From positions 434,001 to 498,000 of the forward strand of contig NZ_BMER01000004.1 in NCBI RefSeq assembly GCF_014636865.1: 64,000 nucleotides of DNA, read 5' to 3'. The position numbers were made by a program, and so were the translations under genes. The notes beneath the pieces are model-generated. The model saw nothing but the letters and a program-made list of their open reading frames with translations. It searched no databases and was not told the DNA's origin. Positions 1,100 to 41,162 of the stretch are shown in pieces; the first letter of the stretch is position 1; each line of letters begins with the position of its first letter. Source of the stretch: Parapedobacter pyrenivorans (lineage in GTDB: Bacteria; Bacteroidota; Bacteroidia; Sphingobacteriales; Sphingobacteriaceae).

Positions 1100-1104
1100 C
1101 CAAC

Positions 1105-4100: not shown

Positions 4101-7100
4101 TGAGGTCGGAAGCGGAGCGGGCCAGGTCATGTTTGAGTTGGTTGCCGGAGCCGAACAGTATATCGCTACGGATTACGCCGAATCGGCCATCCAGAAACTG
4201 CAGGAGAAAATCGACGCCTCGCCCGGCACCTTAGGTCATGTTCGGGCCCATGTAGCCCCAGCAGATGATTTCAGCTGCCTCAATGGACTGAAACCCGACC
4301 TTGTGCTTGTGCACAGTGTGGCTCAGTATTTTCCTGATATGGATTACCTGGTAAAGGTAATCAGCGGGGCTGCCGACCACATGGACCGGGGGTGTATATT
4401 CCTTGGCGATATCCAGGGCAAGAACACCCTGCCCATTCACCATACGGCTGATCAGTTACACCGGACAAAAGATACGGCAACAATTGCCGACTTCAGGAAA
4501 ATCATCGCCAACCGGTTGCGACTGGAGGATGAACTGACCATAGATCCGGCATTCTTCTACCGTCTTCCGGAACTGGTACCTCAGATCACGGGGATAGATG
4601 TGCAATTGCGCCGCGGAAAATTCATCAACGAAATCACCAAGTACCACTATGATGTATGGCTCTACATCAATGGCAACCAAGAGCAAGCAGCGGGTGTTCG
4701 CCGCGAAACATGGCAGTCCATTGAACATACCAAACAGCTTCTGAGCCGGCATCGGGGCGATACCCTGGCTATCCAAGGCATTCCAAACCTTCGTACCGCG
4801 CGGGACCTGACCATTATGGCCCGCCTGCAGGGATTGCAAGACAGTGATACCGTGGGTATGCTGAAGGAACGCATGGAACAAACTGCTAGTCAGGAAAGCG
4901 TGGATCCGGACGTGCTGTGGGACATGGCCAGCCGATACGGTTACCGAGCACACGTACGGTGGTCGGCGGATGGTACCGACGGCCTATTCGAAGCTGTGTT
5001 TATTATGGAATCGGCCGAGCAACTGCTCCCCCCGCCCCCCGCTTCGGTCGACAGTCCTGCTTCCATCCGAGAGTTTATCCGCATCCCGGGCAAAACAGAA
5101 GCGACAGTCGACAATGGCCAATTGGCGAAATGGAAATCGGACCTGCGTCATTCATTACCGGATTATATGTTGCCGAATGACTGGGTTGTACTTGACCGGT
5201 TTCCGCTAACGGAAAACAATAAAATTGACCGAAAGGCGCTTCCAAAACCCGAAAAGCAAGTTTCTAACGAACAGCCAGACCACCGGGCAACGTTGTCGGC
5301 GAATGAAAAACTGATTGCGGACATCTGGGCCAAGGTATTAAAAATCAACGAAGTGAACCCAGACGACGATTTCTTTGAACTGGGCGGGCATTCGTTGCTC
5401 ACCGTTGAGGTAATGACCCTTATCGAGCGGGCTATCGGTGTCTCTTTACCGTTAACCAGTATATTTAAGTATTCGGTCTTACGCGATTTCGCCAAACTCG
5501 TCGCACCCGAGGAACCTTCAGCTGAAAATAAGTCGCCTGACGTTGATCTGATCCGTACGCCTGAGGCAGAAGTGATACAGGTGCTCCCCACCATCGAACC
5601 GCAGCGCGAAATCTGGGTGGCCTGTATGATGGGCGAACAAGCCGCCACTAAAGCTTACACAATCCCGTTTGCTATCGCGTTGTCGGGAGAGCTTGACGAA
5701 GACGCACTCCGCCGTGCGGTACAAAAGCTGGTGGAACGGCATGAAGCACTGAGAACTACGTTCAATGAAGATGGCTCGGAAATGCGGGTACACGCTGAAA
5801 TGATGATTCCGTTTATCCGTGAAGATATTTCTTCCCTTTCCGAACTTGATCAACAAAAATATCTTTCGGATTTTCATCAGGCTACAACAGAATTCGTTTT
5901 CGATTTCATCAACGGGCCTCTTTTCCGCACCACGCTGATCAAACTGGATGACACGGAGTACCGATTAATGCTCTCGGCACATCACATCATCTGCGACGGT
6001 TGGTCTACAGCCGTAATTGCAGAGGAATTGGGTGCACTGTACAGTGCTCATCGGAACGGTAAGGAGCCCTCCCTTGCTCCTGCACCGAAACTGACCGACT
6101 ACATCGCCCAGAAACATCGATTTTACGAAAGCGATACCTACCGGGAAGCAGGGGATTACTGGCTCAGAAAATTTCAGCATGATATTCCCGTGCTAGATCT
6201 TCCCGTTGATTCGGTAAGACCTGCGGTACGCACCTACCAGAGTCGCCGCTCACTTTTTTTAGTCGATGCACCAACAGTAGCATCTTTCCGGCAAATGGCA
6301 AAAAAAACAGGAGGAAGCACGGCCATTAATCTGATGGCACTTGTGGAAATCTTACTTTACAGACTCACCGGATCTCCCGATATTGTTTTCGGGCTACCCG
6401 TTGCCGGACAACTGGAAGCTGCCGAAAACCATGGATTGATCGGGCATTGCGTAAATACCCTGCCGATTCGAAGTGAGGTGTCGGGGGGCCTTACGTTTGA
6501 ACAATACCTAAAGAAACGGAAGGTCGAAATTATTAACGACTACGATCATCAGCAGTATACTTTCGGCAGCTTGGTACAGCGGCTAAATATGGTGCGGGAT
6601 TCTTCACGCATTCCGCTGATACCGTTTTTATTCAACTATGAAGCCAAATCAACTGACACTGTGCAGTTTGCTGACCTGACGCACAGTTTCATTACCCAGG
6701 AACGGTTATACGACAACTTCGAAATCGTATTGAATGCTTCTGATGTCGATGAGGGATTGCTGTTTTCGTGGGTCTATAACAAGGGTCTGTTTTCTCCGGC
6801 CTCTATTGAGGGGTTCCAACGGAAACTGGCACGTCTATTGGAAGCTGTGAGCAGCAACCCATCGCTGTCGATAGACGAGCTTCCCTTCTATGATGAAGAG
6901 GAACTGAATAGAAAGAAACAGGCCTGGACAGCGGAGTATACCGAAAAGGCGATCGATACAACCATCCAGCAACTTTTTACGGATAGTGTTCAACGGTTTC
7001 CTGAACATCCAGCCTTATTTTTCGAAGGTCAATCGCTATCCTATAGCCAACTGGACAAACGGGCAAACCAACTCGCCCATTTACTCATTGAAGAAGGCGT

Positions 7101-23940: not shown

Positions 23941-26079
23941 TTATATTTGAACTTTATTGATGATCCATCCTAAAAATCCCTCATGGCTATCTACCTGATT
24001 CAGGAACTCCTTGTCCCTTGCCCCTATTTCTCGCCCTGCTTCGAATACCGCAACACTTTTATCCGTGAAAGACAGCCATTCCTTTACCTGATTGATACTT
24101 TTAAGGCTATTTAGATCGATAATAATAATGTCAAACTCCTTCTTAAGCACTTCAAAGGCCGCTTTCAGGCTATTGGAATCCTTGATTTCCAGCAACGACT
24201 TATTGTCGGGATTTTTGCTCAGTACCGTAATCATATCTTCCGTTTTGATTTCCTTTTTCACTAAGAAGGACTCAAATGCTTGATTTTCCTTGTGCTGTCT
24301 ATTAGAAATCAATTCAGTAAGATTGGGATAATTATCACCTATTAATAAAACTTTCTTACTAATCAGTGCAAATGCATAGGCAAGACTTGAAGTTAAAAAA
24401 GTTTTCCCTTCACCTTCCGACAGGCTGGTCACACCGATTACTTTTTCATCACCATTGGATAACGACTTATTCAGCTCAAAGCGTAAAGAACGCAATAAAT
24501 CGCGATAAAAAACATGATCTTCTTTTAGGTTACTTTCGTCCCATATCACTCTCAAGTCCTTTTCGCTATCTCCTATCAGGTTTACTCCCCCAATTACCGG
24601 TTTGCCGGTGATCGTTGCCAATTGATCCGATGTCTTGATGGAATGATCTAAGAGGGATAGGATCAAAAGTATGGTTAATATGAAAACCAAGCTGGCGAAC
24701 CAAGATATCGCGGTAAACTGCACCACCTTAGAAGGTTCAGGCGGGCCAGGATAACCGGATTCCACGACGGCTAAATTCAGCATCGCCGAATTCTCCAACG
24801 CGGCTTGATTATACTTATCCATTGCATCGGTGTATTCCTTAATAGCCAGATCGGTCTCACGCTCTAAATTTTGAACGCCGGCGTCTGCCGGCATCATCGC
24901 TCCAAACCTAGCACGCAAATTCCCCAGCTCAGTGTTAATCGTGGATATCGAGTTTTCAGCCCTAGCCAATGCAATTTCAAGATCGGATTTCTCTTTCAAC
25001 AAGCCACGCCTGACTTCTTCAGTATTTACGGGAGATTGCCTCGACAATGCAGAGATCTTGCTGGTGCGAAGCGCTTGAAGCGAGTCAATGATCCGTTTAT
25101 CGGCGGGATTAAAATTGTTTTCAAAATAGCGCTTATTTGCCTGATCCAATTGCTTACCGATTTGGATGATTTCGTTATTTTCTTTAATCGTACTTCCCCT
25201 ATCAAAATTACCTGAGTTCAATTTCCCCTCAATGCTTCGAATCCCCCCTCGTAAAGACTGCATTTCCCCCATTAGTTGGGATCTCCGATTCTCTTGTTCG
25301 GCAATCTGCTGGTACAGCATATCCGATTGAGCTGTCAAATCCAACACACCGCTCCCCGCTTTGAAACTCCTCAATTGGGCATTCTTCTCGTCCATGATTG
25401 TTTTTTTCACCTGGAGAATTGAATCCAACAAGGTTGACGTATTTCGTCTGCTATTTGACGTTACACGGCCATAATAGAAAATGAACTCCTTCGAAAAAGT
25501 GTTGACGGCAAAAGCTGACAGGTCAGGGTTTCCGGAAACATAATCTATATTAATAAAATCACTTTCACCATATCGATAGATAGAAAGATTTTCTGAGATT
25601 GATTTTTCATCGTATCCCATATTCCTTGCCCAATCAAACAACGGATATTTTCCGTTATCCATTGGTGTAATAAATGCGTTATTACTTTGCTTTTCTTTCA
25701 AAATGGAAATTACCTCTGCCAACCCCTGCTGCGAGAGTTTAGTAATATCTTCCGGCAGTTGAGTGTAAGCAGTAGATGGGTTTTCCAAATCGTGCAAAAT
25801 CAAACGAAGCGAAAGTATATTTAATACCCGCTTCGTACCCATCAACTCAATAATGTTTCCGAATTGTTGACTTACCCGGAAGTAATCCAACTGATCGCCG
25901 GATAGAATTTCCTGTGACCTATCGGTTATACCCGTAGTCAGTTGTACACTCGATTTATATTTTTTTGGTAAATCTTTGACCAGAAAGTACGTAGCCACGG
26001 CACAAGCAAATGGTATAAAAATGACCAACCACTTATTGCGCCATACGTTTCTTAGAAAATCGGGGATATTAATCATCAC
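23941..26079 (-). CDS. Wzc/GumC-like chain-length protein with reduced BY-kinase domain
   Basis: 712 residues. An N-terminal membrane helix (residues 16-32) starts a Wzz-type periplasmic domain with long coiled coils (about 210-410), and a second helix (about 450-470) follows a Pro-rich segment. The C-terminal 166 residues form a P-loop domain with SEGEGKT (Lys559) and IIIIDL (Asp655). The usual Walker A' LLIDxD reads LLIGDN, the domain is short, and no C-terminal tyrosine cluster is seen, so kinase activity may be absent or altered. The start is ATG 26079, or the next ATG at 26076. Role: length control and export of the polymer, with the TolC-like protein upstream in the operon. Confidence 0.86.
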   Translation of the reverse strand: MMINIPDFLRNVWRNKWLVIFIPFACAVATYFLVKDLPKKYKSSVQLTTGITDRSQEILSGDQLDYFRVSQQFGNIIELMGTKRVLNILSLRLILHDLENPSTAYTQLPEDITKLSQQGLAEVISILKEKQSNNAFITPMDNGKYPLFDWARNMGYDEKSISENLSIYRYGESDFINIDYVSGNPDLSAFAVNTFSKEFIFYYGRVTSNSRRNTSTLLDSILQVKKTIMDEKNAQLRSFKAGSGVLDLTAQSDMLYQQIAEQENRRSQLMGEMQSLRGGIRSIEGKLNSGNFDRGSTIKENNEIIQIGKQLDQANKRYFENNFNPADKRIIDSLQALRTSKISALSRQSPVNTEEVRRGLLKEKSDLEIALARAENSISTINTELGNLRARFGAMMPADAGVQNLERETDLAIKEYTDAMDKYNQAALENSAMLNLAVVESGYPGPPEPSKVVQFTAISWFASLVFILTILLILSLLDHSIKTSDQLATITGKPVIGGVNLIGDSEKDLRVIWDESNLKEDHVFYRDLLRSLRFELNKSLSNGDEKVIGVTSLSEGEGKTFLTSSLAYAFALISKKVLLIGDNYPNLTELISNRQHKENQAFESFLVKKEIKTEDMITVLSKNPDNKSLLEIKDSNSLKAAFEVLKKEFDIIIIDLNSLKSINQVKEWLSFTDKSVAVFEAGREIGARDKEFLNQVDSHEGFLGWIINKVQI

Positions 26080-26102: not shown

Positions 26103-26780
26103 TTACTTTACGTCCTCTATTTTGGCTCCGATTAGTTCTTCTAGCGCATCTTTGGCAGTTAAATAATTCACTTCTACCTCCAGTTTAGCAGAACTGGCTT
26201 CTGAAACAGAAGCTTTAGCTTCGGCGTAATCACTGAGCATTACTTCGCCCCGCTCAAACCGCAACTGCAGATCATCACTGAACGTCTTACTATCTTGAAG
26301 TGCCAGTTCTTTGATCCGCAATTCATTAAAGGCTTGAATGTAGGTGTAATAACGAATTTTCACCTGATTTTCCAGCTCAATTTCATAAGCCTGACGTTCA
26401 AATTGGGAAATCTTATGATCTATTCTTGCTTGTTTGATTTGGGAGGGCTTCTGAAGAAACGCTCCCAAATTTAGATTCACTCCAAATTGGAAACCATTAA
26501 CAACGTAAGGGTTTTCCATCCCTAGGGCTGCCCGTTCACTGGGCCTGTAAAAGTAAGATACGTTTACTAGGTCCAAGAAGTTGACCGCTTGTGTACTGAC
26601 TATTGAACGTGCCTTTTCTTCATTCAATTCCAAGATTTTCCGTTGTGGATGGTAATCTTTAGCCATTTGAATCATGCGAAGTAATTGCTCTTGGTTAATG
26701 CTTCCTATAATCGATTCCTGAGCAGAAACCGTACCGCAGATAGCTGTAAAAAGTATGCATAAAGGAATAAAATTTTTCAT
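26103..26780 (-). CDS. Half-length TolC-family outer-membrane protein
   Basis: 225 residues from ATG 26780; an ATG at 26804 is also in frame but adds a polar tail before the signal peptide. The signal peptide is MKNFIPLCILFTAICGTVSA, cut before QES. The mature part has alternating amphipathic helices and a short strand region (ENPYVVNGFQFGVNLNLGAF), followed by YTYIQAFNELRIKELALQD and RFERGEVMLSDYAEAKASVS, typical of one TolC/OEP repeat. Normal TolC proteins have two repeats and over 400 residues. This one contains only one, so it would need more subunits to close a barrel, or has another role. It sits where an OPX/Wza gene is expected, 23 bp before the Wzc-like gene. Confidence 0.75.
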   Translation of the reverse strand: MKNFIPLCILFTAICGTVSAQESIIGSINQEQLLRMIQMAKDYHPQRKILELNEEKARSIVSTQAVNFLDLVNVSYFYRPSERAALGMENPYVVNGFQFGVNLNLGAFLQKPSQIKQARIDHKISQFERQAYEIELENQVKIRYYTYIQAFNELRIKELALQDSKTFSDDLQLRFERGEVMLSDYAEAKASVSEASSAKLEVEVNYLTAKDALEELIGAKIEDVK

Positions 26781-26892
26781 AGAGGTATGATTCGAAATTT
26801 TCATTTTTTGTTAATTCCATGGCAAAAATGAAACATATTTTGTTGTAGCTGGTGCCTTCTAGGGCAAAATAGTTTTTTTTGTAGTTATACAC

Positions 26893-29818: not shown

Positions 29819-30969
29819 TTTATACTCATTAAATCATTGACAAAATCTCTTTCAGGTTTCTCCGGTATCATTTTATCTACATATAAAGCCGCTTTTTTTC
29901 CCATCTCTTCCCAACGATCACGCGCTTCCCAAGCTCGTAACATCGCTGCTTCAAACGATAACTCATCCGCTCCACCGATGAATCCCGTTTCTCCCTCTGT
30001 AAGTAATTCTGCATTCCCGCCAACGGCCGTAGTAATGACCGGCCGACCTGCCCGCATTGCTTCCACAATCGTCAATGGCAGCCCTTCACTGCGTGATGGC
30101 AAAATCAACGCATGATGCGACTCCCAAACCGCGCTTACATTCGTTTTAAAGCCTAAAAATGTTATGTTTTCCACATCAAGTAACTCGGCCATTTCTCTTA
30201 ACGCATCCTCATCTTCACCGCGACCTACGAAGGTAATGTGGATCGGCATCGATTTCCACAAAGGCTTACTCAAGATACGCAGCAAGATATCTTGTCCCTT
30301 ATCCAGGATGAAAAGACGGGCGATACAACATATACGGACAACAGATTCCATAGCTGGAAAAGGAATCGGTCGTGAAATCTTTACTGGATTAAATATGACC
30401 TGACTACGCTTAAGACGAAGACCAAACTGCTCTTCCGTGAGCCGGAGATTGTGTTTCGAAACAAAATAACACTTATTTGCTTGATCGTAAACCTCTTTCA
30501 TAAGACTCCGATCCGTGAACGATGGCCAATAGAAGTCAACTGCCTTTTGTGAAATAATAACATACCTAATATGTTTACATAAGCATGCATAGGCATATCC
30601 CAGACCATCAAAATTTATGCCTTGCGAGACAACAACCAAATCGGGTTTGTATTTTGACAGGTGCTTGCTGAATTGTCTTACGGATGCTGTTTGTGCAAAC
30701 CCCGGAATGGCTCCATTCGGTCGCCATACTGCCCTGCGTACTAAGCGAGCTATTAGCGATGTTTTGGGTTTTATATCACACAGCTCAATACCTTTTTTTG
30801 CCAACTGGACATATTTAGTGTGTTTTCGGGGTAGCCCGTCCTTGCATACTACAATCCGGTCTCCTCGTTCCTTCAGAAGACAAGCGCTTGTTGACCACAG
30901 TTCTTCACTTCCTCCCCAATCGTCGCCGCAGGTCGTAACAATCGTTATCGTCTGTTGATGTATCTCCAT
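29815..30969 (-). CDS. Family 4 glycosyltransferase
   Basis: 384 residues. The N-terminus has CGDDWGGSEELW, a glycine-rich acceptor-side loop. The donor half has VRICCIARLFILDKGQD and ITFVGRGEDE. The C-terminal SRSEGLPLTIVEAMRAGRPVI carries the EX7E pair. It follows the ABC exporter gene by 8 bp. The donor is unknown. Confidence 0.88.
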   Translation of the reverse strand: MEIHQQTITIVTTCGDDWGGSEELWSTSACLLKERGDRIVVCKDGLPRKHTKYVQLAKKGIELCDIKPKTSLIARLVRRAVWRPNGAIPGFAQTASVRQFSKHLSKYKPDLVVVSQGINFDGLGYAYACLCKHIRYVIISQKAVDFYWPSFTDRSLMKEVYDQANKCYFVSKHNLRLTEEQFGLRLKRSQVIFNPVKISRPIPFPAMESVVRICCIARLFILDKGQDILLRILSKPLWKSMPIHITFVGRGEDEDALREMAELLDVENITFLGFKTNVSAVWESHHALILPSRSEGLPLTIVEAMRAGRPVITTAVGGNAELLTEGETGFIGGADELSFEAAMLRAWEARDRWEEMGKKAALYVDKMIPEKPERDFVNDLMSIK

Positions 30970-30977
30970 TGCCTACT

Positions 30978-32798
30978 TTAAAATTCTTGAACGAATTCTT
31001 TTTTGAAGAGCGATGCAAATTCGCCACCGGCATATTGCAATTGCTCATACGTACCAGATTCTATAATTTTGCCATTCGATAACACATAGATGTAGTCGGC
31101 ATGTCTCACAGTAGAATGCCGATGGCTGATCACCAAAGCTCCCCTTCCATTCAGGTTCTCTTTTAATTCTTGAAAGAATTTCTGCTCAGATTTAGCATCC
31201 AGTGCACTTGTAGCTTCATCTAGCACCAAAAATTTACTGGAACTGTACAACGCGCGCGCGATGGCAATTTTTTGCCATTGACCGATGCTTACTTCGTTAC
31301 CATTTTCAAAAATACGCCCCATAATCGTATCGTAACCATCTGATAGACTTTCGATAAACTCGTGCGCTCCTGCTCGTTGGGCTGCAGATTTAACCTTGTT
31401 CAATTCATGTGTTGGTTTGCTAATATCTCCTAAGCTTATGTTTTCTAATACGGATACATTATACCTGCAAAAATCCTGGAATACTGCACTGATATAACGC
31501 CGGTACTGTCGATCGGGGAAACTATTTATACTTACATTACCTAGGCTTATATTGCCTTGCGTAGGTTCGTAAAGCTTACAAATCAACTTAATCAATGTAC
31601 TTTTACCTGCCCCGTTTAATCCAACAATAGCAACCACTTTTCCCTCTGGGAAAGATAAATTTATACCACTCAAAGTCGGCTTAGCTGCATGTGGATAGAT
31701 AAAACTGACATTGTCCAGTTCAAGCGAAATCGGAGCCTCCGACTCGATCGTCACCTCAGTTTCGACCGTCCTCTTCTCCGTGCCTTTGACATCAAATAAA
31801 TCAAATATACTCTTTACAAAGATATTATTGTGATAAACAACTGTTATACCGTTAGTTACACCTTGCATCATATTGAACACCTGCGGAAAGATGACCAGAA
31901 AGACCGCTATGTCACCGATCGTTACAAGCCCCTTAATTGATCCCCATACTACATACGCGATACACGCAAAAAAACCGAAAGTTGCTAATACAGTAGCCAT
32001 TACTTCTTTTATGGTTCTCCGATAACTGATAGCCAATCGCTCACCGACAATCGCTTTTCTGATATCAACCAGCCGGGACATAAAGTGATCCCCTAAACCG
32101 AAGAGACGTACCTCCTTTGCGGAGTTTTCAGATGTCAAAAGGCTACCGAAGTATCCTGATTGGCGCTCAAGCGCCGTATGACGGAGCCGCAAAAGATTGA
32201 GCTTATCCGAGTAGTAAATCCGTATAAACAACGTCGGTAACATACAAGCTACCAATAATGGTAGAAGTAATGCGTCAATGGAAAAAATAACAGAAGCTAT
32301 GGCAAAGAGCCCCAACACTTGCTTTAACGTGTCAAACAATGTGACTACTACCGCATGAGGCCGATCATAGCCAGATTCCTTGGCACGTTGCAGTACATCA
32401 AAATATTCAGGACTTTCATAAAAAGAATAATCCAATGCCGCAGCCTTTTCATGTATCTTCGCATAAAGATGCTCTGAAACCTTCGCAGATTGTATTTCAG
32501 TTGCATATACGGAAAACGCCTTTATAACATGGTAACAAATAGTTAATAACGCTGCCCAAACTAACGTGTACATAATCTCCTCCACCTCAGTCTGTTCCTT
32601 GCTTATGGTTATAGACACCGCATCAATCAGCATTTTTAATGCATATATAGACCCGAAAAACAACAGGGTTTCTAAAATAATCATACAGATCGCCAAAACA
32701 GACCACTTGCCAGCGACCGACCAAACCAACCTCAAAGTACGGGAAATATTGAGATTTGATTTAAAAATCGCTATTCGTTTAGAAATCCGCTTAACCAT
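30978..32798 (-). CDS. ABC exporter half-transporter (TMD-NBD fusion)
   Basis: 606 residues. Six N-terminal membrane helices (about 20-320) are fused to an ATPase domain with GLNGAGKSTLIKL (Walker A), VSIGQWQKIAIARAL (signature, in the VSIGQ form) and FLVLDEATSALD (Walker B). The VSIGQ signature is common in exporters of peptides and lipids. It would dimerise in the inner membrane. In this locus it could export a lipid-linked sugar, a glycolipid or a peptide, in addition to the Wzx route. It is the first gene of the minus-strand run left of the opposite-strand GT14 gene. Confidence 0.88.
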   Translation of the reverse strand: MVKRISKRIAIFKSNLNISRTLRLVWSVAGKWSVLAICMIILETLLFFGSIYALKMLIDAVSITISKEQTEVEEIMYTLVWAALLTICYHVIKAFSVYATEIQSAKVSEHLYAKIHEKAAALDYSFYESPEYFDVLQRAKESGYDRPHAVVVTLFDTLKQVLGLFAIASVIFSIDALLLPLLVACMLPTLFIRIYYSDKLNLLRLRHTALERQSGYFGSLLTSENSAKEVRLFGLGDHFMSRLVDIRKAIVGERLAISYRRTIKEVMATVLATFGFFACIAYVVWGSIKGLVTIGDIAVFLVIFPQVFNMMQGVTNGITVVYHNNIFVKSIFDLFDVKGTEKRTVETEVTIESEAPISLELDNVSFIYPHAAKPTLSGINLSFPEGKVVAIVGLNGAGKSTLIKLICKLYEPTQGNISLGNVSINSFPDRQYRRYISAVFQDFCRYNVSVLENISLGDISKPTHELNKVKSAAQRAGAHEFIESLSDGYDTIMGRIFENGNEVSIGQWQKIAIARALYSSSKFLVLDEATSALDAKSEQKFFQELKENLNGRGALVISHRHSTVRHADYIYVLSNGKIIESGTYEQLQYAGGEFASLFKKEFVQEF

Positions 32799-33005
32799 TT
32801 ATTCTGCTGTTGTATATTCCTGATAAAATGAGATTCAAAAATCCACTGACATAGTACAGAGTTGCCTAAGTTGACTATTTACTGTGTATAATGGGTAATT
32901 TTTGTTTTTCAGGTGCATAATTATCTATTTTTTTTTACATTGCAATGGCATCTGTAGCATTGAATAATATATTGTAGTAAATCGACCACAATCAGATACA
33001 AATAC

Positions 33006-33890
33006 GTGACAACTACCCCTGAAATCTTATTCCATCCCCGCGTTGCTCATCTCCTTTTAGTACATAAATCTCCTTGCCAGGTAGGAAGACTGGTGAAACG
33101 TTTACAGCATCCTTCTGCCTCTATTTATATTCATGTTGATGGTAAGGCCCCTATTGAGCCCTTTAGAAACGCTATTTTAGAAACGGGGGTCTCCAACGTG
33201 GAATTTATAACCGACAGATATTGTATCAATTGGAGTGCTTTTAGCATGGTCGAAGCAACATTAAGTTCTCTAAGACATATCGCCACTATCGAAAAATACG
33301 ATTTCATAAATTTAATGAGTGGGGAAGATTACCCGTTGAAATCGCCATTGCAATTTCATACTTTTTTGAGTAATCATAGGGATAAGTCTTTCATGGAATT
33401 TCAAAAGCCGGGAGATGAGTGGTGGGAAGAAGCTCAGATCCGCTTCAGACGATACTATCTAAATGACTTTACCCTAAAAGGTCAATTTTTTCTGGAAAAG
33501 GTAGTCAATAAATTGACCCGTCCTCGCAAGCACCCGAAAAGTACAGTAATCGTCGGAAAATCACAATGGTTTACATTGGCTGTACCCCACCTCATGTATA
33601 TACTTAAAAACGAGAAAAAATTACGTTATCTAAAGCGGTTTTTCAAATATTCCTGGGCGCCAGACGAATTTTTCTTTCAAACGTTGTTGTATAATTCACC
33701 CTACCGCGAAAAAATCATTAACGACAATTTGCGCTATATCAATTGGGATAACGGCAAATCAAGTCCCAAAATACTCACTGCTGAGGATTTACCTGTATTG
33801 AAAGCCTCCGGAAAGTTTTTTGCAAGGAAATTTAATACAGATATCGATCGCGGCGTACTAGACCGCCTTGATGAATGGATTCTTCCATAA
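33006..33890 (+). CDS. GT14 (core-2/I-branching-type) glycosyltransferase, GTG start
   Basis: 294 residues. The only plausible start is GTG 33006: no in-frame ATG occurs before the conserved start VAHLLLVHKSPCQVGRLV, and the frame is closed upstream at 32961-32963. IHVDGKAPIE, LMSGEDYPLKSP and WAPDEFFFQTLL are the hallmarks of the beta-1,6-N-acetylglucosaminyltransferase-like family, whose bacterial members make xylosyl or GlcNAc linkages. It is the only plus-strand gene inside the minus-strand locus, so it must have its own promoter in 32799-33005. It may add a side branch under separate control. Confidence 0.85.
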   Translation: MTTTPEILFHPRVAHLLLVHKSPCQVGRLVKRLQHPSASIYIHVDGKAPIEPFRNAILETGVSNVEFITDRYCINWSAFSMVEATLSSLRHIATIEKYDFINLMSGEDYPLKSPLQFHTFLSNHRDKSFMEFQKPGDEWWEEAQIRFRRYYLNDFTLKGQFFLEKVVNKLTRPRKHPKSTVIVGKSQWFTLAVPHLMYILKNEKKLRYLKRFFKYSWAPDEFFFQTLLYNSPYREKIINDNLRYINWDNGKSSPKILTAEDLPVLKASGKFFARKFNTDIDRGVLDRLDEWILP

Positions 33891-33923
33891 TAGAAAACGG
33901 CGCATGAAACAATCTTCTATTAT
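33887..33923. terminator. Inverted repeat between convergent genes
   Basis: ATAATAGAA (33887-33895) and TTCTATTAT (33915-33923) are perfect 9-bp arms around a 19-nt loop. The left arm covers the stop codon of the GT14 gene and the right arm ends 6 bp before the sugar transferase stop. The position suggests a bidirectional stem that ends or protects both transcripts. There is no T-run and the stem is AT-rich, so efficiency is doubtful. Confidence 0.4.
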
Positions 33924-33928
33924 ATCTC

Positions 33929-35014
33929 CTAGACAGCCTCTTTCTGAAATAAAGCCGGTACTGTCTTGATTAAAATTTTCAGGTCCATCCAAAAAGAAAA
34001 ATGATTGGCATAATCGTTGTCCAATTGCCGGCGCTCTTCGTCGGACATTTCACTTCGGCCTCGTTTAGTGACTTGCCATAACCCCGTAATCCCCGCGGGA
34101 CCTAGGAAGCGTAACGCCCAATCATCGGAAGTGAGTTCCTGTGCCTCGTACAGGGGTAAAGGCCTATTTCCCACTAGCGACATATCTCCGTTCAATACGT
34201 TGAAAAGCTGCGGAAGTTCATCCAAACTCGTATTACGTAAAAAAGAACCCAGTCTGGTAACTCTAGGATCATTCTTTATTTTGATGAATGCCGATGAACC
34301 GCCATTTGTTGCGTATTGATTTAACGCAGACAATTTATCCAATTCTTTATCGGCATTGACGCGCATAGAACGGAATTTATAGAAATCAAACACCTTATAC
34401 CCGGTTCCTGCCCGTTTGCTCCGATAAAAAACCGGACCTTTCGAATCCAATTTTATTAGTAAGGCGATTAACAACATAATCGGCAAAAAAAACAATAGGA
34501 CTAAACCGGCAACCACGATATCAAACAATCGCTTTGTAGCCGGAATCTTGTAATGTATCGCAGGAACACTAACCCGATAGGCTTTCCCTTCATTCCGGAT
34601 ATGCTTAAACCTCAATATGAACTTAACACGTTCTCTAAGATCAGCGACGTTGAACGGATAAAAGTAAATATCATTTACAAAAGGCCGAAATGCCTCGATC
34701 ACCGTATTCTTATTTCCTGAAAAATTCAGCAAAATAATACTGACGCCTTGAGTAATGGGATTGCTTTTTATGCTCGTAATCAGACGTTTGACTTCTGCCG
34801 TTTCGATACCGACCTCCAGCAATAATAATTCGGGGACATGCAATAAGTCGCAATTACTGATAAACAGCTCCAAATCCCTGATTTGGCTAAATTTAGTAAT
34901 ATCAGCGTTATCAAAAAAATCACTAGCCAGCTCATCACTGAACCTATTTCCTAAATACGCAATAGATATAGTAAGAAAATGCCGTTCATTTTTTACATCA
35001 GTTAATAAATCCAT
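33929..35014 (-). CDS. Initiating sugar-phosphate transferase fused to a pseudo-receiver domain
   Basis: 361 residues. The C-terminal part (about 160-361) is a bacterial sugar transferase (WbaP/WcaJ/PglC class): KRLFDIVVAG, a single membrane helix, FYRSKRAGTGYKVFDFYKFRSM, LDELPQLFNVLNGDMSLVGNRP and GLWQVTKRG. It should transfer a sugar phosphate to undecaprenyl phosphate and start the repeat. The usual multi-helix N-domain is missing. Residues 10-140 instead read as a response-receiver fold in which the acceptor Asp is Glu67 (LLLLEV), the Lys-Pro-Phe motif is Tyr119-Pro-Phe, and the switch Ser/Thr is Asn97. It cannot be phosphorylated in the normal way, and Glu may mimic the phosphorylated state. 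The gene overlaps the stand-alone receiver gene by 17 bp. Confidence 0.87.
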   Translation of the reverse strand: MDLLTDVKNERHFLTISIAYLGNRFSDELASDFFDNADITKFSQIRDLELFISNCDLLHVPELLLLEVGIETAEVKRLITSIKSNPITQGVSIILLNFSGNKNTVIEAFRPFVNDIYFYPFNVADLRERVKFILRFKHIRNEGKAYRVSVPAIHYKIPATKRLFDIVVAGLVLLFFLPIMLLIALLIKLDSKGPVFYRSKRAGTGYKVFDFYKFRSMRVNADKELDKLSALNQYATNGGSSAFIKIKNDPRVTRLGSFLRNTSLDELPQLFNVLNGDMSLVGNRPLPLYEAQELTSDDWALRFLGPAGITGLWQVTKRGRSEMSDEERRQLDNDYANHFSFWMDLKILIKTVPALFQKEAV

Positions 35015-35387
35015 AGGTCGATGTGTTAAAAATATTTCCGATTGATTGTTTTAGCTTAAGTGGATCAAAAGGTTTACGGAGACATTGATTGACAGCATAC
35101 GGAAGGTCGTTTAATTCTTCGTGGATATTCTCGGACGCAGACAATACAATGACGGGTATTTCAGAATATAGACCACTCACTTTAAGACATTTAAGAAAGG
35201 ATTTACCGTCCATATGTGGCATGACCCAATCCATGATAATTAAGTCAGGAACATTCCTGTTTTCCAAATAAACAAAGGCTTCGTACCCATTAGGTGCAGC
35301 GTCCACGTCAAAGTCCTTTGACAATATGAAGTGTAACAATCTTTGTATTGTGGGCTCGTCTTCTACCAGAAGTATTTTCTTCTTCAT
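34998..35387 (-). CDS. Stand-alone response-regulator receiver protein
   Basis: 129 residues, only a receiver domain. All key residues are present: acidic pair Glu9-Asp10, acceptor Asp53 (IIMDWVMP), Ser83 (VLSAS) and Lys105 (RKPF). There is no output domain, so it acts by protein-protein contact. Its end overlaps the start of the sugar transferase with a degenerate receiver domain, and the coupling suggests the two proteins interact, perhaps as a heterodimer of true and pseudo receiver. No histidine kinase is in the window. It is the first gene of the minus-strand locus. Confidence 0.9.
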   Translation of the reverse strand: MKKKILLVEDEPTIQRLLHFILSKDFDVDAAPNGYEAFVYLENRNVPDLIIMDWVMPHMDGKSFLKCLKVSGLYSEIPVIVLSASENIHEELNDLPYAVNQCLRKPFDPLKLKQSIGNIFNTSTYGFIN

Positions 35388-35469
35388 ACTTTATAGCTTG
35401 GAAATCTTACTCGGACAAATCTCCACGTTTTTTGCGAAATCTAACTGAAAAACTGTGCCTTTTCGTTCA

Positions 35470-35491
35470 ATTGTAGCGATTCCACTACAAT
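35470..35491. promoter_or_regulatory. Small inverted repeat in divergent intergenic region
   Basis: ATTGTAG and CTACAAT form perfect 7-bp arms with an 8-nt spacer. It lies 83 bp upstream of the receiver gene and 85 bp upstream of the CPBP-like gene. It could be an operator for one or both divergent genes, or chance. Confidence 0.3.
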
Positions 35492-35527
35492 CTTACTTTC
35501 CGTTTCAAAAAAGCACGTTTGACACTA

Positions 35528-35556
35528 TTGATTTACCATTAATTTTTACACTTTTG
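35528..35556 (+). promoter_or_regulatory. Possible Bacteroidota promoter of the CPBP-like gene
   Basis: TTG at 35528-35530 and CACTTTTG at 35549-35556 are 18 bp apart, close to the TTG / TAnnTTTG consensus with one mismatch in the -7 box. The ATG is 20 bp downstream. Confidence 0.35.
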
Positions 35557-35575
35557 ATTTTAAATTCATAGCCCG

Positions 35576-36373
35576 ATGAGAGATTTTATTAAAAAACATG
35601 AAGTTTGGATATTCTTGACGCTCGCGCCTTTACTCAATGCAGTTGTAACTTATGCGAACAGTAAGGGAATTGTTGAAGGATACGCGTATCAACACGGTCG
35701 ATTTTTTGCCCTTTTATTTTTTTTGATTTGTGTTGTAACCTTTACAAGAGGGATAAAAGGCGTGAAAGATTTGTTTAGACCGATGTTGATATGGAAAATT
35801 AATCCTAAATGGTATCTATTCAGTTTATTATTCTCATTGACAATCTGTTCCTTCACACTATTGCTTAAGAGCTTTTATCACGGAATTGATTATTCTTCGC
35901 TGATGAAGTTTGATTTTCCGCCATTCGGAATCTCTATCATGTTGTTGACTTGGGCATTTATGGGTGAGGTTGTCTGGGTCAGCTACGCCATTCGGGAATT
36001 ATCAAAAACGTTACCCCCTTTTTATGCAAGTCAAATCATCGGTTTTTTCTGGACTTGTTGGTGGCTACCCTCAGTTTTAATCAATGTAGGTGTGATCTCC
36101 GACCTTCCGATATGGGCCCTCCTGCTGAATATGATGGGCGCCGCCGGGATGTGTGCGGTAGTTTATGGAAAAACGAAAAGTGGTGTCTGTGTGTGGATAT
36201 TACAATTTATGCTGAATATGTCTCTACTCATACTACCCGTATCGCCCACAGTGGGCGGGGCAGCGACGTATAGTACGTTCGCGGTGCTTTATTATGTGGT
36301 AATGTTAGGCTTTATGTATTTTATGAATCCGGCAAGTGAGCGAGTGATGAGATTCAAACCTAACCCGCAGTGA
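35576..36373 (+). CDS. CPBP-like membrane protein with degenerate protease motifs
   Basis: 265 residues with about eight membrane helices. The helix pair containing GEVVWVSYAIREL and, later, FFWTCWWLPSVL looks like motifs 1 and 2 of the CPBP (Rce1/Abi) glutamic protease family. In the usual EExxxR / FxxxH pattern the second Glu is Val, the Arg is lost and the motif 2 His is Trp. It is therefore probably a non-catalytic relative, perhaps a membrane regulator or scaffold. It is transcribed away from the polysaccharide locus. The function is unknown. Confidence 0.6.
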   Translation: MRDFIKKHEVWIFLTLAPLLNAVVTYANSKGIVEGYAYQHGRFFALLFFLICVVTFTRGIKGVKDLFRPMLIWKINPKWYLFSLLFSLTICSFTLLLKSFYHGIDYSSLMKFDFPPFGISIMLLTWAFMGEVVWVSYAIRELSKTLPPFYASQIIGFFWTCWWLPSVLINVGVISDLPIWALLLNMMGAAGMCAVVYGKTKSGVCVWILQFMLNMSLLILPVSPTVGGAATYSTFAVLYYVVMLGFMYFMNPASERVMRFKPNPQ

Positions 36374-36387
36374 TTGCCGTACGCCTG

Positions 36388-36429
36388 AAAACAAAAAAGC
36401 TGGCCATGTATCTTCCTGCATGGCCGGCT
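36388..36429 (-). terminator. Rho-independent terminator of the HEAT/DUF1080 gene
   Basis: AGCTGGCCATG (36398-36408) and CATGGCCGGCT (36419-36429) form an 11-bp stem with one G-T pair and a 10-nt loop. On the minus strand it is followed by TTTTTTGTTTT. It starts 23 bp after the stop codon of the minus-strand gene and also lies after the stop of the plus-strand gene. Confidence 0.65.
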
Positions 36430-36451
36430 ATCAATTCCGTTATCAGAGATC

Positions 36452-39400
36452 TTACAACCGCTTAATCCGTATATTCCGGAAATGTACCTCCGATCCATGG
36501 CCCAGGAAAGCGATGTGCCCTGATTTACGTTTCAATCCGGGGTGTTCTTTATGGTCAAGTGTACCATTTTTCGAAGCCGCAGCCAAATCACCATCTACGA
36601 TCACCGTGCCATTCAGTGTTACCCTGATTTTGTTGCCCTGTACACGTATCTCCTGTTCATTCCATTCGCCAACTGGCTTCAAGTATCCACGCTTCGCTGG
36701 AATAATGCCATAGACGGAACCATGGTATTGGTATTCGGCTAAATCCTTATACATATCCGCGCCATCATCCAACACCTGTATTTCCATACCCGCATAAGCG
36801 GCATCACCATCCATTGGACTACGGATGCCGATCCCGTTATTCGCACCTGGGGTCAGCCTGAATTCGAATCGGTACACGAAATCGGCGAACTCTTCCTTGG
36901 TATAGAGGTTTCCGCCCGATCCTTCTGTCGGATAGATGGCTAATGTACCTTCATCACTCACGTGATATGCAGTTGTGTTACCAGTCCATGCCTCCAAATC
37001 AGTACCGTCAAATAATACCTTATAACCATCTTGCTTTTCTGCGTCACTAAGGCTGGAAATTTCCTTTCGGGGCAACTCACGGATGTAAATGTCCCGGTAG
37101 GAAACAAGGGTCCCATGGGCCTGTAATTCAATTTGTTCCTTAGGAAATATGGGTAGGCTTCTGTCCCAAAAGTTTTCGAGTACGACTTGATCGGTTACCA
37201 GTTCTCCATTGAGGTAAACAGTTACGCGATCATCAATCATGATGATACGGAACGTATTCCATTCTCCCAACGCATTGTCGGCTACTTTAAGTGGTTTACT
37301 CTCATGCTTTTGATTGTTGTATAGTCCGCCTGAACCCACTTGTGCGCCGACGTTCACACGTGAAGTATCCCAAATTTGCACCTGTGGGGTGCCCCGAAGG
37401 TAAATCCCCGCATCGCCTTCTTTCCCCTCTTTGGCCAGTTTCCAGTCGACCAACATTTCGAAATCACCGTATTGCTTCAACGTTGCAATATTATCGCCAT
37501 GCCCGTTGAAAAGCAATTCGCCATGCTGTACAGACCATCCACCACGCATGACTTCATCTGCTTTGACTTGTGCTTCGGCCAATGTTTTGGCATCCATATT
37601 AGCTCGCTTAATGGGGTCGGCGACCAAACCTTTCCATCCCTCCAAGTCTTTTCCGTTGAATAACGAAACAAATCCAGGTCCTTTTGGTAATTCATTAACA
37701 TGCTTCTGGATCGCTTCGCGCAGGTAACTACTTTCGCTGCCCGAAAGCAGTTCAATCACCCGATTTAACAGGCGGACTACATCAGCACCGTAAAAGCTCT
37801 TTTCTTCCAATGCGATGTTCATGACCGTATTTGCGGCTGTCGCACTTAACTGCTTATCATCGAGGAATTTCCCTGCAAATAGCAATGCGTTGTAGGTTTT
37901 ATTGGCTTCCAACGCCCTCAAAATCAGCTTGCGCTGATCTGCGGTTTGCGCGATTTCAAATAGATCACGCAGATGCAAGACTTTTTGCGCAGCCGGTAAA
38001 TCGGCGATGCCGATAACCCGCACGAGTCCTTTGACAATTGCGTCCAATTGGGCTGCATCCGTCACTTTCTTACGGCTTAATGCAATCAATTCGGGCAATG
38101 CTCCAGCATCAATCCAATTTGCTAATGCAGAGGTAGCTGCCCCACGCAATGCAGGGTCCTGCTGATTCGTGAAATCAGACACCACGGTTAAAGCGGTCTG
38201 GCCACCGACCCCCGACAGAATGGGAAAGAAGTTGAGCTGTTGGACGCTGCTCGCAACCTTCAGCCGAGAAATGATAAGTTTTAATTGCGCCTCCTTATTA
38301 TCACTGCGGTTTACCGCGACAACTGCGGCTTTCTGAACCGATGCTGTAAACGCTCCGTTGTCAGTAGCAGACAATAAAGCGAGTAGGTTGTCCAAATCAT
38401 CCGGACGGACCATTTGAGGTAGTGCAGCATAGGCAGCCGCCTTTATCTCTTCTGAGGCATCACTGCGAATAATATCAAGGATCGCAGGCACATGCTCACC
38501 AGCCCCCCGTTGTGCCAGCACATCCATCAATAACACCTGGACATTTCCGTCGTTCTCCGCAGACAGCGCATCGGCCACCAATTGCGGAAGTTGTTTGTTT
38601 TTGGAGATAAGCAGTACTTGCTTAATAGCCGCCCTTGTTTTTGGTTCGCTTTCCGGAAGCAACGCCAACAATTCCTCCACGGCTGCCTCTCCGGTTAATT
38701 TGTGCAAAGCCTCGACGGCGGCTCCACGGACGTAGAGCGAATTGGAATGCAACGCTTCCCTAACTACGGGGAGTGTCGAACGCAGCTGGTTTTCACCCGC
38801 ATACCGGAGGATATCTGCTTGGATCTGCTCATCCGCCTTAGCGAGATTCCGCACCAGTCGTGAAGTCGAGTGATCATCCAAATAAGGGACCAGCAGTTGT
38901 AACGCCGCGTTTCGGTATGTCGCGTCGTCGTCTTTGGATGCTTTCAATAGTTCCTTTACTTGCTTGGCTCCGTTTATTTCCGTAAGCAGTCCCAAAGCGG
39001 CAATACGGGTGTGTACCTGCTGAGCCTGTTTAGTCTGCTTAAACAAGCTTGTTGCTATTTTACGTGCGGTAGCGACATCATCCCGCGCAACCAAGCGATG
39101 GGCATAGTTTACGTAAGCAGTGGTTGCACCGGTCGGCTCGTAGATATAGCCAGCTGCTTTGGCAGCATCCGACAACACCAATTTTGAGGACGCTCCTCCA
39201 ATGCGCGAAAGTGCGTACAATGCGGCCTTGCGCAATCCGATATCGGTAGTGGCCGATTTCGCTAAAATAGATTGCTCTGCCGGTGCGTAAGCCATGAATC
39301 CAAGTGCATTAATAACATGGATCGCCACATTGTCCGCGGCATCGGGCAATGCTCCCATCAGGGTCTTACCAGCTTCGTCCGTACCGATACGTGCTAACGC

Positions 39401-39862
39401 ACGAGCGGCCTTTTCACTTAAATACTGGTCCGTTAGGTACATACCCAGCGGAGCCACGGCCAAATCATTTCCTGCATTTTGTAGAAGTTGAATGATAAAG
39501 CCTTTGGAGTCTTTGTCTGTAAGTACCGCAAGGGCATCTGCAGCTCCTTTAATGAACGTTTCACGTTGGCTGGTTTTTCCAGGAAGCAACACGTGGTAGC
39601 TGTAACTGTTTGAAGCATATTCGATACCCGCGTCGCTGCCTTCGCCTGGGGGCGTAAGTTTCCCAAGCAGGGTGGCTATATCTGATGCGGAAAAGCGCTC
39701 AAGTTGACCCATCGCATCCTGAAGCCGCTGTGGAGTTTCCGAGGGCTGTAAAGCAAGTAAATCGGCTATTTTGGTTGTCGCCGTCCGTGTATCGCTTTGC
39801 TGGGCAAATACGGGTAATTGCAATATGAAAAGCGCTAGAAGCGCAGGCATTATTTTTTTCAT
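36452..39862 (-). CDS. Secreted HEAT-repeat protein with two C-terminal DUF1080 domains
   Basis: 1136 residues from ATG 39862, where the signal peptide MKKIMPALLALFILQLPVFA begins. The longer frame to 39925 would run into the oxidoreductase gene. Residues 30-720 are helical HEAT-like repeats (for example DDVATARKIATSLF, NSLYVRGAAVEALHKL). Two concanavalin-like DUF1080 domains follow at about 725-930 (SLFNGKDLEGWKGL) and 940-1136 (VLFDGTDLEAWTGN). DUF1080 proteins are known to act on 3-keto-glycosides. It is periplasmic or secreted. The Tat-exported Gfo/Idh gene lies 28 bp upstream in the same direction, so the pair should work together on a sugar or glycoside. Confidence 0.88.
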   Translation of the reverse strand: MKKIMPALLALFILQLPVFAQQSDTRTATTKIADLLALQPSETPQRLQDAMGQLERFSASDIATLLGKLTPPGEGSDAGIEYASNSYSYHVLLPGKTSQRETFIKGAADALAVLTDKDSKGFIIQLLQNAGNDLAVAPLGMYLTDQYLSEKAARALARIGTDEAGKTLMGALPDAADNVAIHVINALGFMAYAPAEQSILAKSATTDIGLRKAALYALSRIGGASSKLVLSDAAKAAGYIYEPTGATTAYVNYAHRLVARDDVATARKIATSLFKQTKQAQQVHTRIAALGLLTEINGAKQVKELLKASKDDDATYRNAALQLLVPYLDDHSTSRLVRNLAKADEQIQADILRYAGENQLRSTLPVVREALHSNSLYVRGAAVEALHKLTGEAAVEELLALLPESEPKTRAAIKQVLLISKNKQLPQLVADALSAENDGNVQVLLMDVLAQRGAGEHVPAILDIIRSDASEEIKAAAYAALPQMVRPDDLDNLLALLSATDNGAFTASVQKAAVVAVNRSDNKEAQLKLIISRLKVASSVQQLNFFPILSGVGGQTALTVVSDFTNQQDPALRGAATSALANWIDAGALPELIALSRKKVTDAAQLDAIVKGLVRVIGIADLPAAQKVLHLRDLFEIAQTADQRKLILRALEANKTYNALLFAGKFLDDKQLSATAANTVMNIALEEKSFYGADVVRLLNRVIELLSGSESSYLREAIQKHVNELPKGPGFVSLFNGKDLEGWKGLVADPIKRANMDAKTLAEAQVKADEVMRGGWSVQHGELLFNGHGDNIATLKQYGDFEMLVDWKLAKEGKEGDAGIYLRGTPQVQIWDTSRVNVGAQVGSGGLYNNQKHESKPLKVADNALGEWNTFRIIMIDDRVTVYLNGELVTDQVVLENFWDRSLPIFPKEQIELQAHGTLVSYRDIYIRELPRKEISSLSDAEKQDGYKVLFDGTDLEAWTGNTTAYHVSDEGTLAIYPTEGSGGNLYTKEEFADFVYRFEFRLTPGANNGIGIRSPMDGDAAYAGMEIQVLDDGADMYKDLAEYQYHGSVYGIIPAKRGYLKPVGEWNEQEIRVQGNKIRVTLNGTVIVDGDLAAASKNGTLDHKEHPGLKRKSGHIAFLGHGSEVHFRNIRIKRL

Positions 39863-39890
39863 TCGGTTTATAGCATTTATATGAGCAATC

Positions 39891-41162
39891 TTAAATCGAC
39901 CACGGACCGCGCATGGGCTGGTCAATCAACCTATTGGCAGCGTCGTCATCAATGAATACCTGATTTTGAGGGTCAAACTTAAGCGACCTGCCTAAACGCA
40001 AGGCCATCAGTCCCATATTCACAATGGTACAAGAGCGGTATCCATTTTCCTCATTGAGTGCGAATTTCCTACGGGTCTTCACTGCCTCCACAAAATCGGT
40101 CATTTGAGGTTCGGGGTCGGGGAAGGCAGCTAGTTTACGTTCCATATCCGGAATGTCTGATTCAAACCCCTTGAAAAGTTTTCCGTTCGGACCTTCAATG
40201 TAAGGCATGCCTACATCTTTACCTTCGCCATCCAGGATGATCTGGCAGCCATCCGAGTACGTAAACGTAATCCGACGCCAAGTACCCACCGCATCACTGT
40301 GCTGTTGGGGAGCATCGATCTCCACAGAAATGGGGCTTTCGTTATCCTTATTCAGGAAATATTGGACAGGGTCGATATAATGTTGCCCCATGTCGCCTAA
40401 ACCGCCTCCGTCATAATCCCAGTACCCTCTGAACGTGGTATGTACACGATGCGTACTATAAGGCTTATATGGAGCTGGGCCTAGCCACATATTGTAATCC
40501 AATTCACTTGGCACCTGCTCCACAGGTAAGTTCTCTTGCCCCACCCAGTAAAACTTCCAGTCGAATCCGGTGTGTTTGCTGATTGTTACTTTAAGCGGCC
40601 AGCCCAACATGCCGGAATTCACCAGCTTCTTAATGCGCTTTACCGGAACGTTCATCCCGTAAAAATTGTCCTCAAAACGGAACCACGTGTTCAAGCGGAA
40701 AATATTGCCATGTTGTTTTACGGCTTCAACCACGCGCTTCCCCTCGCCTATCGTACGCGTCATCGGCTTTTCGCACCAGATGTCTTTTCCCATCCGAGCG
40801 GCTTCCGCTGCCATAATACCATGCCAGTGCGGCGGGGTAGCAATATGGACAATGTCTACCTCCGGCAACTGAATCAGGTCGCGGAAGTCCGCGAATTGCT
40901 TGACGCCTTGATCACCAAGCTGTTTCATGGCCAGTGCCAAATGGCGGGTATCCACATCACAGATGGCAACGGTTTTTGTACCTGCATAACCAAAATGGCC
41001 ACGCCCCATACCTCCCACCCCAATCACTCCCTTAGTGAGGTGGTCACTGGGTGCCAAAAATCCTTGGCCGCCCAATACAAAACGGGGAACGATGCTAAAT
41101 GCCGCCGCCCCCATCAAAGATTTCTTGATAAATTCCCGACGGGACTTGTTGTTTTCCTTCAT
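39891..41162 (-). CDS. Tat-exported Gfo/Idh/MocA oxidoreductase
   Basis: 423 residues from ATG 41162; an ATG six codons earlier only lengthens the N-terminus. SRREFIKKSLMGAAAFS is a Tat signal, so the enzyme is exported folded, with its nicotinamide cofactor. GVIGVGGMGRGHFGYAG is the nucleotide-binding motif, and WCEKPMTRT carries the EKP triad of the family. The C-terminal part (DMGQHYIDPVQYF) gives the substrate-side helix. Members interconvert sugar hydroxyls and ketones. With the DUF1080 protein behind it, a role in 3-keto sugar handling is likely. The divergent ROK repressor may control it. Confidence 0.9.
   Translation of the reverse strand: MKENNKSRREFIKKSLMGAAAFSIVPRFVLGGQGFLAPSDHLTKGVIGVGGMGRGHFGYAGTKTVAICDVDTRHLALAMKQLGDQGVKQFADFRDLIQLPEVDIVHIATPPHWHGIMAAEAARMGKDIWCEKPMTRTIGEGKRVVEAVKQHGNIFRLNTWFRFEDNFYGMNVPVKRIKKLVNSGMLGWPLKVTISKHTGFDWKFYWVGQENLPVEQVPSELDYNMWLGPAPYKPYSTHRVHTTFRGYWDYDGGGLGDMGQHYIDPVQYFLNKDNESPISVEIDAPQQHSDAVGTWRRITFTYSDGCQIILDGEGKDVGMPYIEGPNGKLFKGFESDIPDMERKLAAFPDPEPQMTDFVEAVKTRRKFALNEENGYRSCTIVNMGLMALRLGRSLKFDPQNQVFIDDDAANRLIDQPMRGPWSI

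Follow-up and report, generated by a model that had tools for sequence, protein, structure and literature searches.

Phosphorylated EpsW of Myxococcus xanthus (EpsW~P) is reported to stimulate the PGT EpsZ (PMC12802240). The likeness to the gene pair described here is that a phosphorylatable single-domain receiver goes with an initiating monotopic PGT, for a Wzx/Wzy-type exopolysaccharide (PMC12802240). EpsZ belongs to the large monoPGTs and carries a TM bundle and a DUF, whereas our fusion has a pseudo-receiver in their place; the genes of our pair are adjacent and overlap, unlike those of EpsW and EpsZ; and there is bench evidence for EpsW–EpsZ, whereas our pair is known here from sequence and models. 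Receiver domains in small monoPGTs were found by O'Toole, Imperiali and Allen in 2021, as reported in PMC12802240. Those fusions belong to the same architecture class as ours, as far as a one-sentence description of them allows the comparison; it is relevant to that earlier survey that PF00072 misses the pseudo-receiver of our protein.

In PleD, a receiver works together with a pseudo-receiver fused to a catalytic domain (PMC12632262). The NCBIfam model of PleD, matched under its cut-off, relates our N-domain to the second receiver of PleD and our stand-alone receiver to the first. However, PleD is a single chain and a diguanylate cyclase, whereas ours is a system of two polypeptides with a PGT as output. 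In Salmonella enterica WbaP (8t53), an N-terminal cytosolic module also precedes a catalytic domain of the same kind, and this module reportedly stabilises the dimer and has a regulatory role (PMC10942596). The WbaP module is made of a PF13727 domain and a four-TM bundle, unlike the N-domain of our fusion. In OmpR/PhoB receivers, an acid four places before the conserved Lys (K-4) and an Arg ten places after it (K+10) serve in the alpha4-beta5-alpha5 dimer face. The pseudo-receiver shares these two residues but has no acceptor Asp, metal site, conserved Lys or DNA-binding output. PhoB dimers reportedly depend crucially on two charged residues in the middle of this face, whose conservation is absolute (PMC2586830).

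The control of the first step of surface-glycan synthesis, which consumes the lipid carrier, is poorly understood (PMC10942596), and a 2025 review calls the switching mechanisms of bacterial pseudo-receivers a mystery (PMC12632262). The gene pair joins both questions in one small system, and its relatives form a natural variant series, with Asp, Glu, Ser or Ala at the acceptor position on one side of the pair or the other. Among the papers listed in our literature search (titles and abstract openings, subscription journals being sparsely represented), none described this receiver/pseudo-receiver-PGT pair of Bacteroidota. As far as we searched, both ingredients are known in print; the split module and its conserved features are not described. 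The observation is real, well conserved and functionally suggestive.

The fusion protein and its N-terminal domain

The window, which is the whole stretch of 64,000 nucleotides that we analysed, carries the genes of the fusion and of the stand-alone receiver on the minus strand (Table 1). The plus strand of 33929-35014 is full of stops, and Rfam gave no match in window positions 30000-40000.

Table 1. Features of the window discussed in the text, with the evidence for each assignment
Feature	Position	Strand	Evidence
Pseudo-receiver/PGT fusion protein, 361 aa	33929..35014	-	ORF, Pfam, AF2
Pseudo-receiver domain, residues ~13-140	34595..34978	-	AF2 topology, Z against PDB receivers, PhoB/PleD models
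Glu67 codon	34814-34816	-	
Monotopic PGT catalytic domain, residues ~159-356	33947..34540	-	PF02397, PglC structure match
Stand-alone single-domain receiver, 129 aa	34998..35387	-	PF00072, E 5e-21
Reading-frame overlap of receiver and fusion, 17 bases	34998..35014	-	
TolC/OEP-like outer-membrane protein	26103..26804	-	NCBIfam, under cut-off
Wzc-like chain-length determinant/autokinase	23941..26079	-	TIGR03007 and TIGR01007, under cut-off

As its sequence indicates, the transferase half of the fusion is an intact small/bifunctional monotopic PGT of PglC type with an Asp-Glu dyad. Bac_transf (PF02397) matches residues 161-356 with an E-value of 3e-63, and VIA-align superposes the model of the catalytic domain on PglC (8e37) with Z 20.9, over 181 residues at 2.8 A. 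The dyad, Asp265-Glu266, which we take to be catalytic as in PglC, is invariant in the alignment of 41 rows. The earlier note had proposed that the usual multi-helix N-domain is replaced, and the predictions agree: Pfam finds no PF13727-type domain before the catalytic domain at E<=1, and the AF2 model has no helix longer than 15 residues N-terminal to residue 159. By these predictions, the fusion does not belong to the large monotopic PGTs, which are characterised by a four-TM bundle and a PF13727 DUF.

The N-domain itself has no match in Pfam, even at E<=1, and it is absent from the 93 matches that PF00072 gives in the genome of the organism, which include the stand-alone receiver. Two NCBIfam models match under their cut-offs: that of PhoB (residues 59-140 against profile positions 45-126, E 2e-4) and that of PleD (residues 60-140 against 198-278, E 1e-4). 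Since the PhoB match runs at an offset of 14 with no net gap, Glu67 corresponds to D53, Asn97 to T83 and Tyr119 to K105, which are the acceptor, switch and Lys positions to which the earlier note had assigned these residues. In the same alignment, Asp115 corresponds to D101 and Arg129 to R115, which we take to be the charged pair of the PhoB dimer face.

The AF2 model, calculated from 41 rows, has a mean pLDDT of 80.4 (71-93 per ten-residue block over residues 11-140). It predicts the receiver order, five alternating strands and five helices over residues 16-137: b1 16-21, a1, b2 37-42, a2, b3 63-68, a3, b4 92-97, a4, b5 115-118 and a5 123-137. Foldseek matches the N-domain model to receivers with E-values of 1e-5 to 1e-3, and VIA-align gives Z 15-17 against known receivers, with an rmsd of ~2 Å over ~115 residues (3dgf, for example, aligns over 116 residues at 1.8 A). 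Residues ~14-139 are predicted to form a CheY-like receiver by fold, as claimed from the sequence in the earlier note. The residues found at the site (Tyr20, Leu21, Glu67, Asn97 and Tyr119) are not those of a functional CheY-like receiver, which would have an acid pair, an acceptor Asp, a Thr/Ser and a Lys. The N-domain is a pseudo-receiver, though PF00072 fails to recognise it.

Relatives and the former phosphorylation site

We searched 201 genomes of the family, 201 of the order, 395 of the phylum and 295 of the class, and scanned named genomes (Mucilaginibacter, Pedobacter, Arcticibacter, Daejeonella, Desertivirga and others), from which 80 of 115 loci were kept. Counts over genomes are lower bounds. 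At E<=1e-8, profile A1 matched at least 18 of the 395 phylum genomes and at least 15 of the 295 class genomes, some of these matches being plain receivers. Profile A6, built from 18 N-domains with divergent ones included, matches receivers in at least 387 of the 395 phylum genomes; since it picks up every kind of receiver, it supports homology but is of no use for counting fusions. The 247 loci collected yielded 173 distinct fusions once proteins below 340 aa (L184, L236) and 18 PGT-less loci had been set aside and identical proteins merged.

The 173 fusions were sorted by hand into 153 core and 20 divergent ones. In a rapidly built catalytic-domain tree (72 of the 173 rows), which leaves 31 of 68 inner branches open, the core forms one side of a branch with an SH-aLRT of 89. 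Two members of divergent type belong to genomes of the window's own family, namely L266 and L179, the latter being identical to L267. L266 (G013) and L267 (G035) represent a second type of receiver/PGT pair, of 399-404 aa with Tyr at position 67, and G013, also of this family, carries both types.

Position 67 is Glu in 151 of the 153 core members (Asp in L249, Ala in L258), more than chance would give, and among positions 1-149 it ranks fourth in conservation in the core (weighted, Neff 66). The earlier note would have taken random residues at this position in relatives as refuting the mimic; Glu is conserved in the core but not outside it: the 20 divergent fusions have Asp in 6, Glu in 5 and another residue in 9 (Tyr in 3, Gln in 2, and Lys, Gly, Ser and Asn in one each), and the tree requires seven changes between Glu and not-Glu. 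Tyr occupies position 119 in 94 core members. Acids at positions 20, 21 or 22 occur in 0/153 of them.

The constancy of Glu67 could mean that it is a built-in phosphomimic, which would hold the domain in an active-like state and make it a permanently "on" binding partner. PhoB D10A/D53E (2jb9), which is titled constitutively active, carries similar changes, with a metal acid lost and Asp replaced by Glu, and superposes on the model with Z 15.4. Receivers without the Asp also most often have Glu at the D position (PMC12632262), and four of the 150 core partner receivers have likewise changed to Glu. However, a Glu mimic is thought to act perhaps via the conserved Thr and Lys, and Phe at K+2 biases CheY to the inactive state (PMC12632262). 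In the core, Lys is never found at position 119 (0/153), Ser or Thr is found at position 97 in just 78 of the 153 (Ser in 75 and Thr in 3, against Gly in 35, Ala in 20, Leu in 18, and Asn and Asp in one each), and Phe stands at K+2 in 120. The two exceptions at position 67 and the variability of the divergent relatives also speak against a mimic, and the structures that match the model include receivers in both active and inactive states, judging by the titles of the entries. The "locked" state of the earlier note is not supported by these residues, and we regard a phosphomimic as improbable, although the similar changes in 2jb9 keep the idea in play. Because the Lys never occurs in the core and Ser or Thr in only half of it, we rather judge Glu67 to be structural or to make a new contact, for which Tyr20 is a candidate.

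Tyr20 is kept in 140 of the 153 core members; apart from it and Glu67, the catalytic pocket of the domain has been lost. Both this residue, at a former metal place, and Glu67, at the acceptor place, could instead be contacts of a small ligand in a re-used pocket, by analogy with WbaP, whose domain is proposed to sense a nucleotide, UMP (PMC10942596). Such a use of the pocket would leave the pairing of the fusion with a receiver unexplained, and both residues vary outside the core; we give it little credence.

The stand-alone receiver and a proposed switch

The receiver encoded upstream of the fusion has a complete acceptor site (E9, D10, D53, S83 and K105). Pfam finds a receiver domain alone in it, and no DNA-binding domain was seen. 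The PGT of the window resembles EpsZ in that its cognate single-domain receiver has an intact acceptor site.

A receiver was counted as the partner of a fusion when its gene lies upstream on the same strand and either overlaps the fusion gene or is at most 70 bases away. By script, 150 of the 153 core fusions and 19 of the 20 divergent ones have such a partner (169 in total). The partners of L051 and L136, masked by a start called too early, were found by hand, and a receiver precedes the fusion in 171 of the 173 distinct fusions overall. As for the others, L201 has no receiver within 12 kb, and in L143, which lacks one within 8 kb, the gene immediately upstream codes for a histidine kinase. 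With starts as called by the script, the reading frames overlap in 119 of the 150 core pairs and in 122 of all 169 pairs; among the first 110 loci, the overlaps are most often 23, 20 or 17 bases long. As a control, we considered the PF02397 PGTs of 13 genomes, including that of the window (30 of 35 matches). A receiver lies beside all 9 PGTs of the fusion type and beside none of the 21 others, which are 16 large and 5 bare PGTs.

This control and the pairing of 171 of 173 fusions make it likely that the stand-alone receiver directly controls initiation. The near-universal pairing in the relatives suggests that a signalling protein acts as the switch for the first step of sugar-chain synthesis. 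The tie to two-component signalling put forward in the earlier note is supported to this extent, but not its claim of direct binding: the chain model in which the two proteins are read through as one is not confident (pTM 0.42), and its superposition on the PleD arrangement gives an rmsd of 19 A over 252 residues, a comparison limited by the low pTM. Co-variation between the two proteins (150 pairs, Neff 70) amounts to noise, with inter-protein pairs ranked as high as intra-protein ones.

The acceptor of the partner is not universal either. Asp53 is kept in 153 of 169 partners and Lys105 in all 169. The 16 partners without Asp53 are among the 150 core ones and have Ser (12) or Glu (4) instead, and the second metal acid is altered in all 16. 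The Ser partners are those of L141, L191, L224-L227, L231, L237, L250 and L257-L259, and the Glu partners those of L192, L229, L256 and L260. The tree requires three changes between Asp and not-Asp in the partner. Without Asp53, the pair cannot rely on ordinary phosphorylation of the partner in these lineages, and this is evidence against a purely two-component interpretation in their case.

We lean towards the view that the gene pair works as a single switch at the initiation of exopolysaccharide synthesis, under direct control of the stand-alone receiver. The fused receiver, which has lost its phospho-chemistry, would serve the PGT for docking and dimerisation, and the stand-alone receiver would be the phosphorylatable input, binding the PGT through or beside the pseudo-receiver. 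Most likely, in our opinion, the pseudo-receivers would pair mutually via their alpha4-beta5-alpha5 face, using the acid at position 115 and Arg129, and the partner, usually phosphorylated by a presumed kinase, would stabilise a productive arrangement, as proposed for EpsW~P on EpsZ.

The conserved residues of the pseudo-receiver point to this face. Arg129 is present in all 173 fusions and position 115 is always acidic (Asp in 168, Glu in 5), so that the signature of the OmpR/PhoB dimer face, an acid at K-4 with an Arg at K+10, is found in 173/173. By comparison, among 34 receivers of the organism's own genome (taken from 29 of the best 30 of the 93 matches), 22 have Asp at K-4, 9 have Arg at K+10 and 7 have both. 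In the core (weighted, Neff 66), Arg129, Tyr117 and Asp115 never vary, and the constant residues of the domain sit on beta5 and alpha5. Conservation does not extend over the entire supposed face, however: alpha4 scores 1.72 bits, against 2.96 and 2.74 for beta5 and alpha5. The acidic residue 115 and Arg129 would still speak for pairing on the alpha4-beta5-alpha5 face, despite the poorly conserved alpha4. The description of small monoPGTs as functional monomers (PMC12802240) weighs against a dimer.

The same face could serve in a heterodimer of receiver and pseudo-receiver, which phosphorylation of the partner would make or break. Such heterodimers are named as a possibility in PMC12632262, and the one-to-one pairing of the genes suits them. 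The 19 divergent partners would also suit, with Asp at K-4 in 17 and Arg at K+10 in 11, and 125 of the 150 core partners have an acid at K-5, the position before K-4. The core partners mostly lack the two charges themselves, which the pseudo-receiver always keeps: K-4 is Ala, Ser or Gly in 113 of 150, and Arg is not among the seven commonest residues at K+10. The chain model, as noted, is not confident. We find a heterodimer possible but doubtful; the core partners mostly lack the charge pair, though they retain the K-5 acid, and this weakly favours homodimers of pseudo-receivers over a symmetric heterodimer. An alignment putting the stand-alone receivers onto the pseudo-receiver (A3) was dropped for its low identities.

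The weak conservation of alpha1, beta2 and alpha4, together with some three losses of the partner's acceptor site in the tree, could also be what is left of a decayed receiver, kept for folding alone, with the partner acting elsewhere. We give this only a slim chance: it fits poorly with the invariance of Asp115, Tyr117 and Arg129 in the core, with co-occurrence in 9/9 against 0/21 PGTs, and with the frequent overlap of the genes.

The proposed switch has further exceptions to accommodate, namely the receiver beside a bare PGT in L274, the fusion without receiver in L201, and the rarity of kinases, with kinase-like ORFs near core pairs at 7 of 80 named loci (three query kinases, ORFs >=200 aa). 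Going further, a split PleD-like switch might exist in many Bacteroidota, with a PGT dimer held by pseudo-receivers locked in alpha4-beta5-alpha5 pairing and the receiver of the overlapping gene toggling initiation; in some lineages of Sphingobacteriaceae, where the partner has lost its acceptor site, it would have become a phosphorylation-free receiver pair still in control of the enzyme. We offer this generalisation tentatively and would not rely on it.

Genomic setting

In the window, the partner and the fusion head a minus-strand run, interrupted by one plus-strand gene (33006-33890), which continues with an ABC exporter, two glycosyltransferases, a methyltransferase, a TolC-like protein and a Wzc-like protein. 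Homologues of the TolC-like and Wzc-like proteins are each found in the examined flanks of 68 of the 80 named loci. In L093, the TolC-like and Wzc-like genes directly follow the PGT, and an O-antigen ligase-family protein comes next.

Two loci outside the core give the best genomic hint of a two-component input to the initiation step. In L274 (G284; 5011-8278), a hybrid kinase (HisKA, HATPase, receiver, Hpt) is directly followed by a stand-alone receiver and by a bare 258-aa PGT, so that receiver and PGT are paired without any pseudo-receiver. In L271 (G599; 1935-7904), genes for an H-NOX protein, an HNOBA-PAS-PAS-kinase, a FIST protein and a kinase, all on the same strand, immediately precede a receiver-type PGT, whose receiver has Asp at the acceptor site; there is no stand-alone receiver in the 8 kb examined. 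A route from nitric oxide to glycan initiation is possible in L271.

The plus-strand gene at 33006-33890, just past the PGT gene, codes for a core-2/I-branching-type glycosyltransferase (PF02485), at a place where relatives like L093 have the TolC-like gene. Last, the glycan cluster is flanked at window positions 44-9594 by two genes named by eye, one resembling a PLP aminotransferase and the other a nonribosomal peptide synthetase of 2850 aa.
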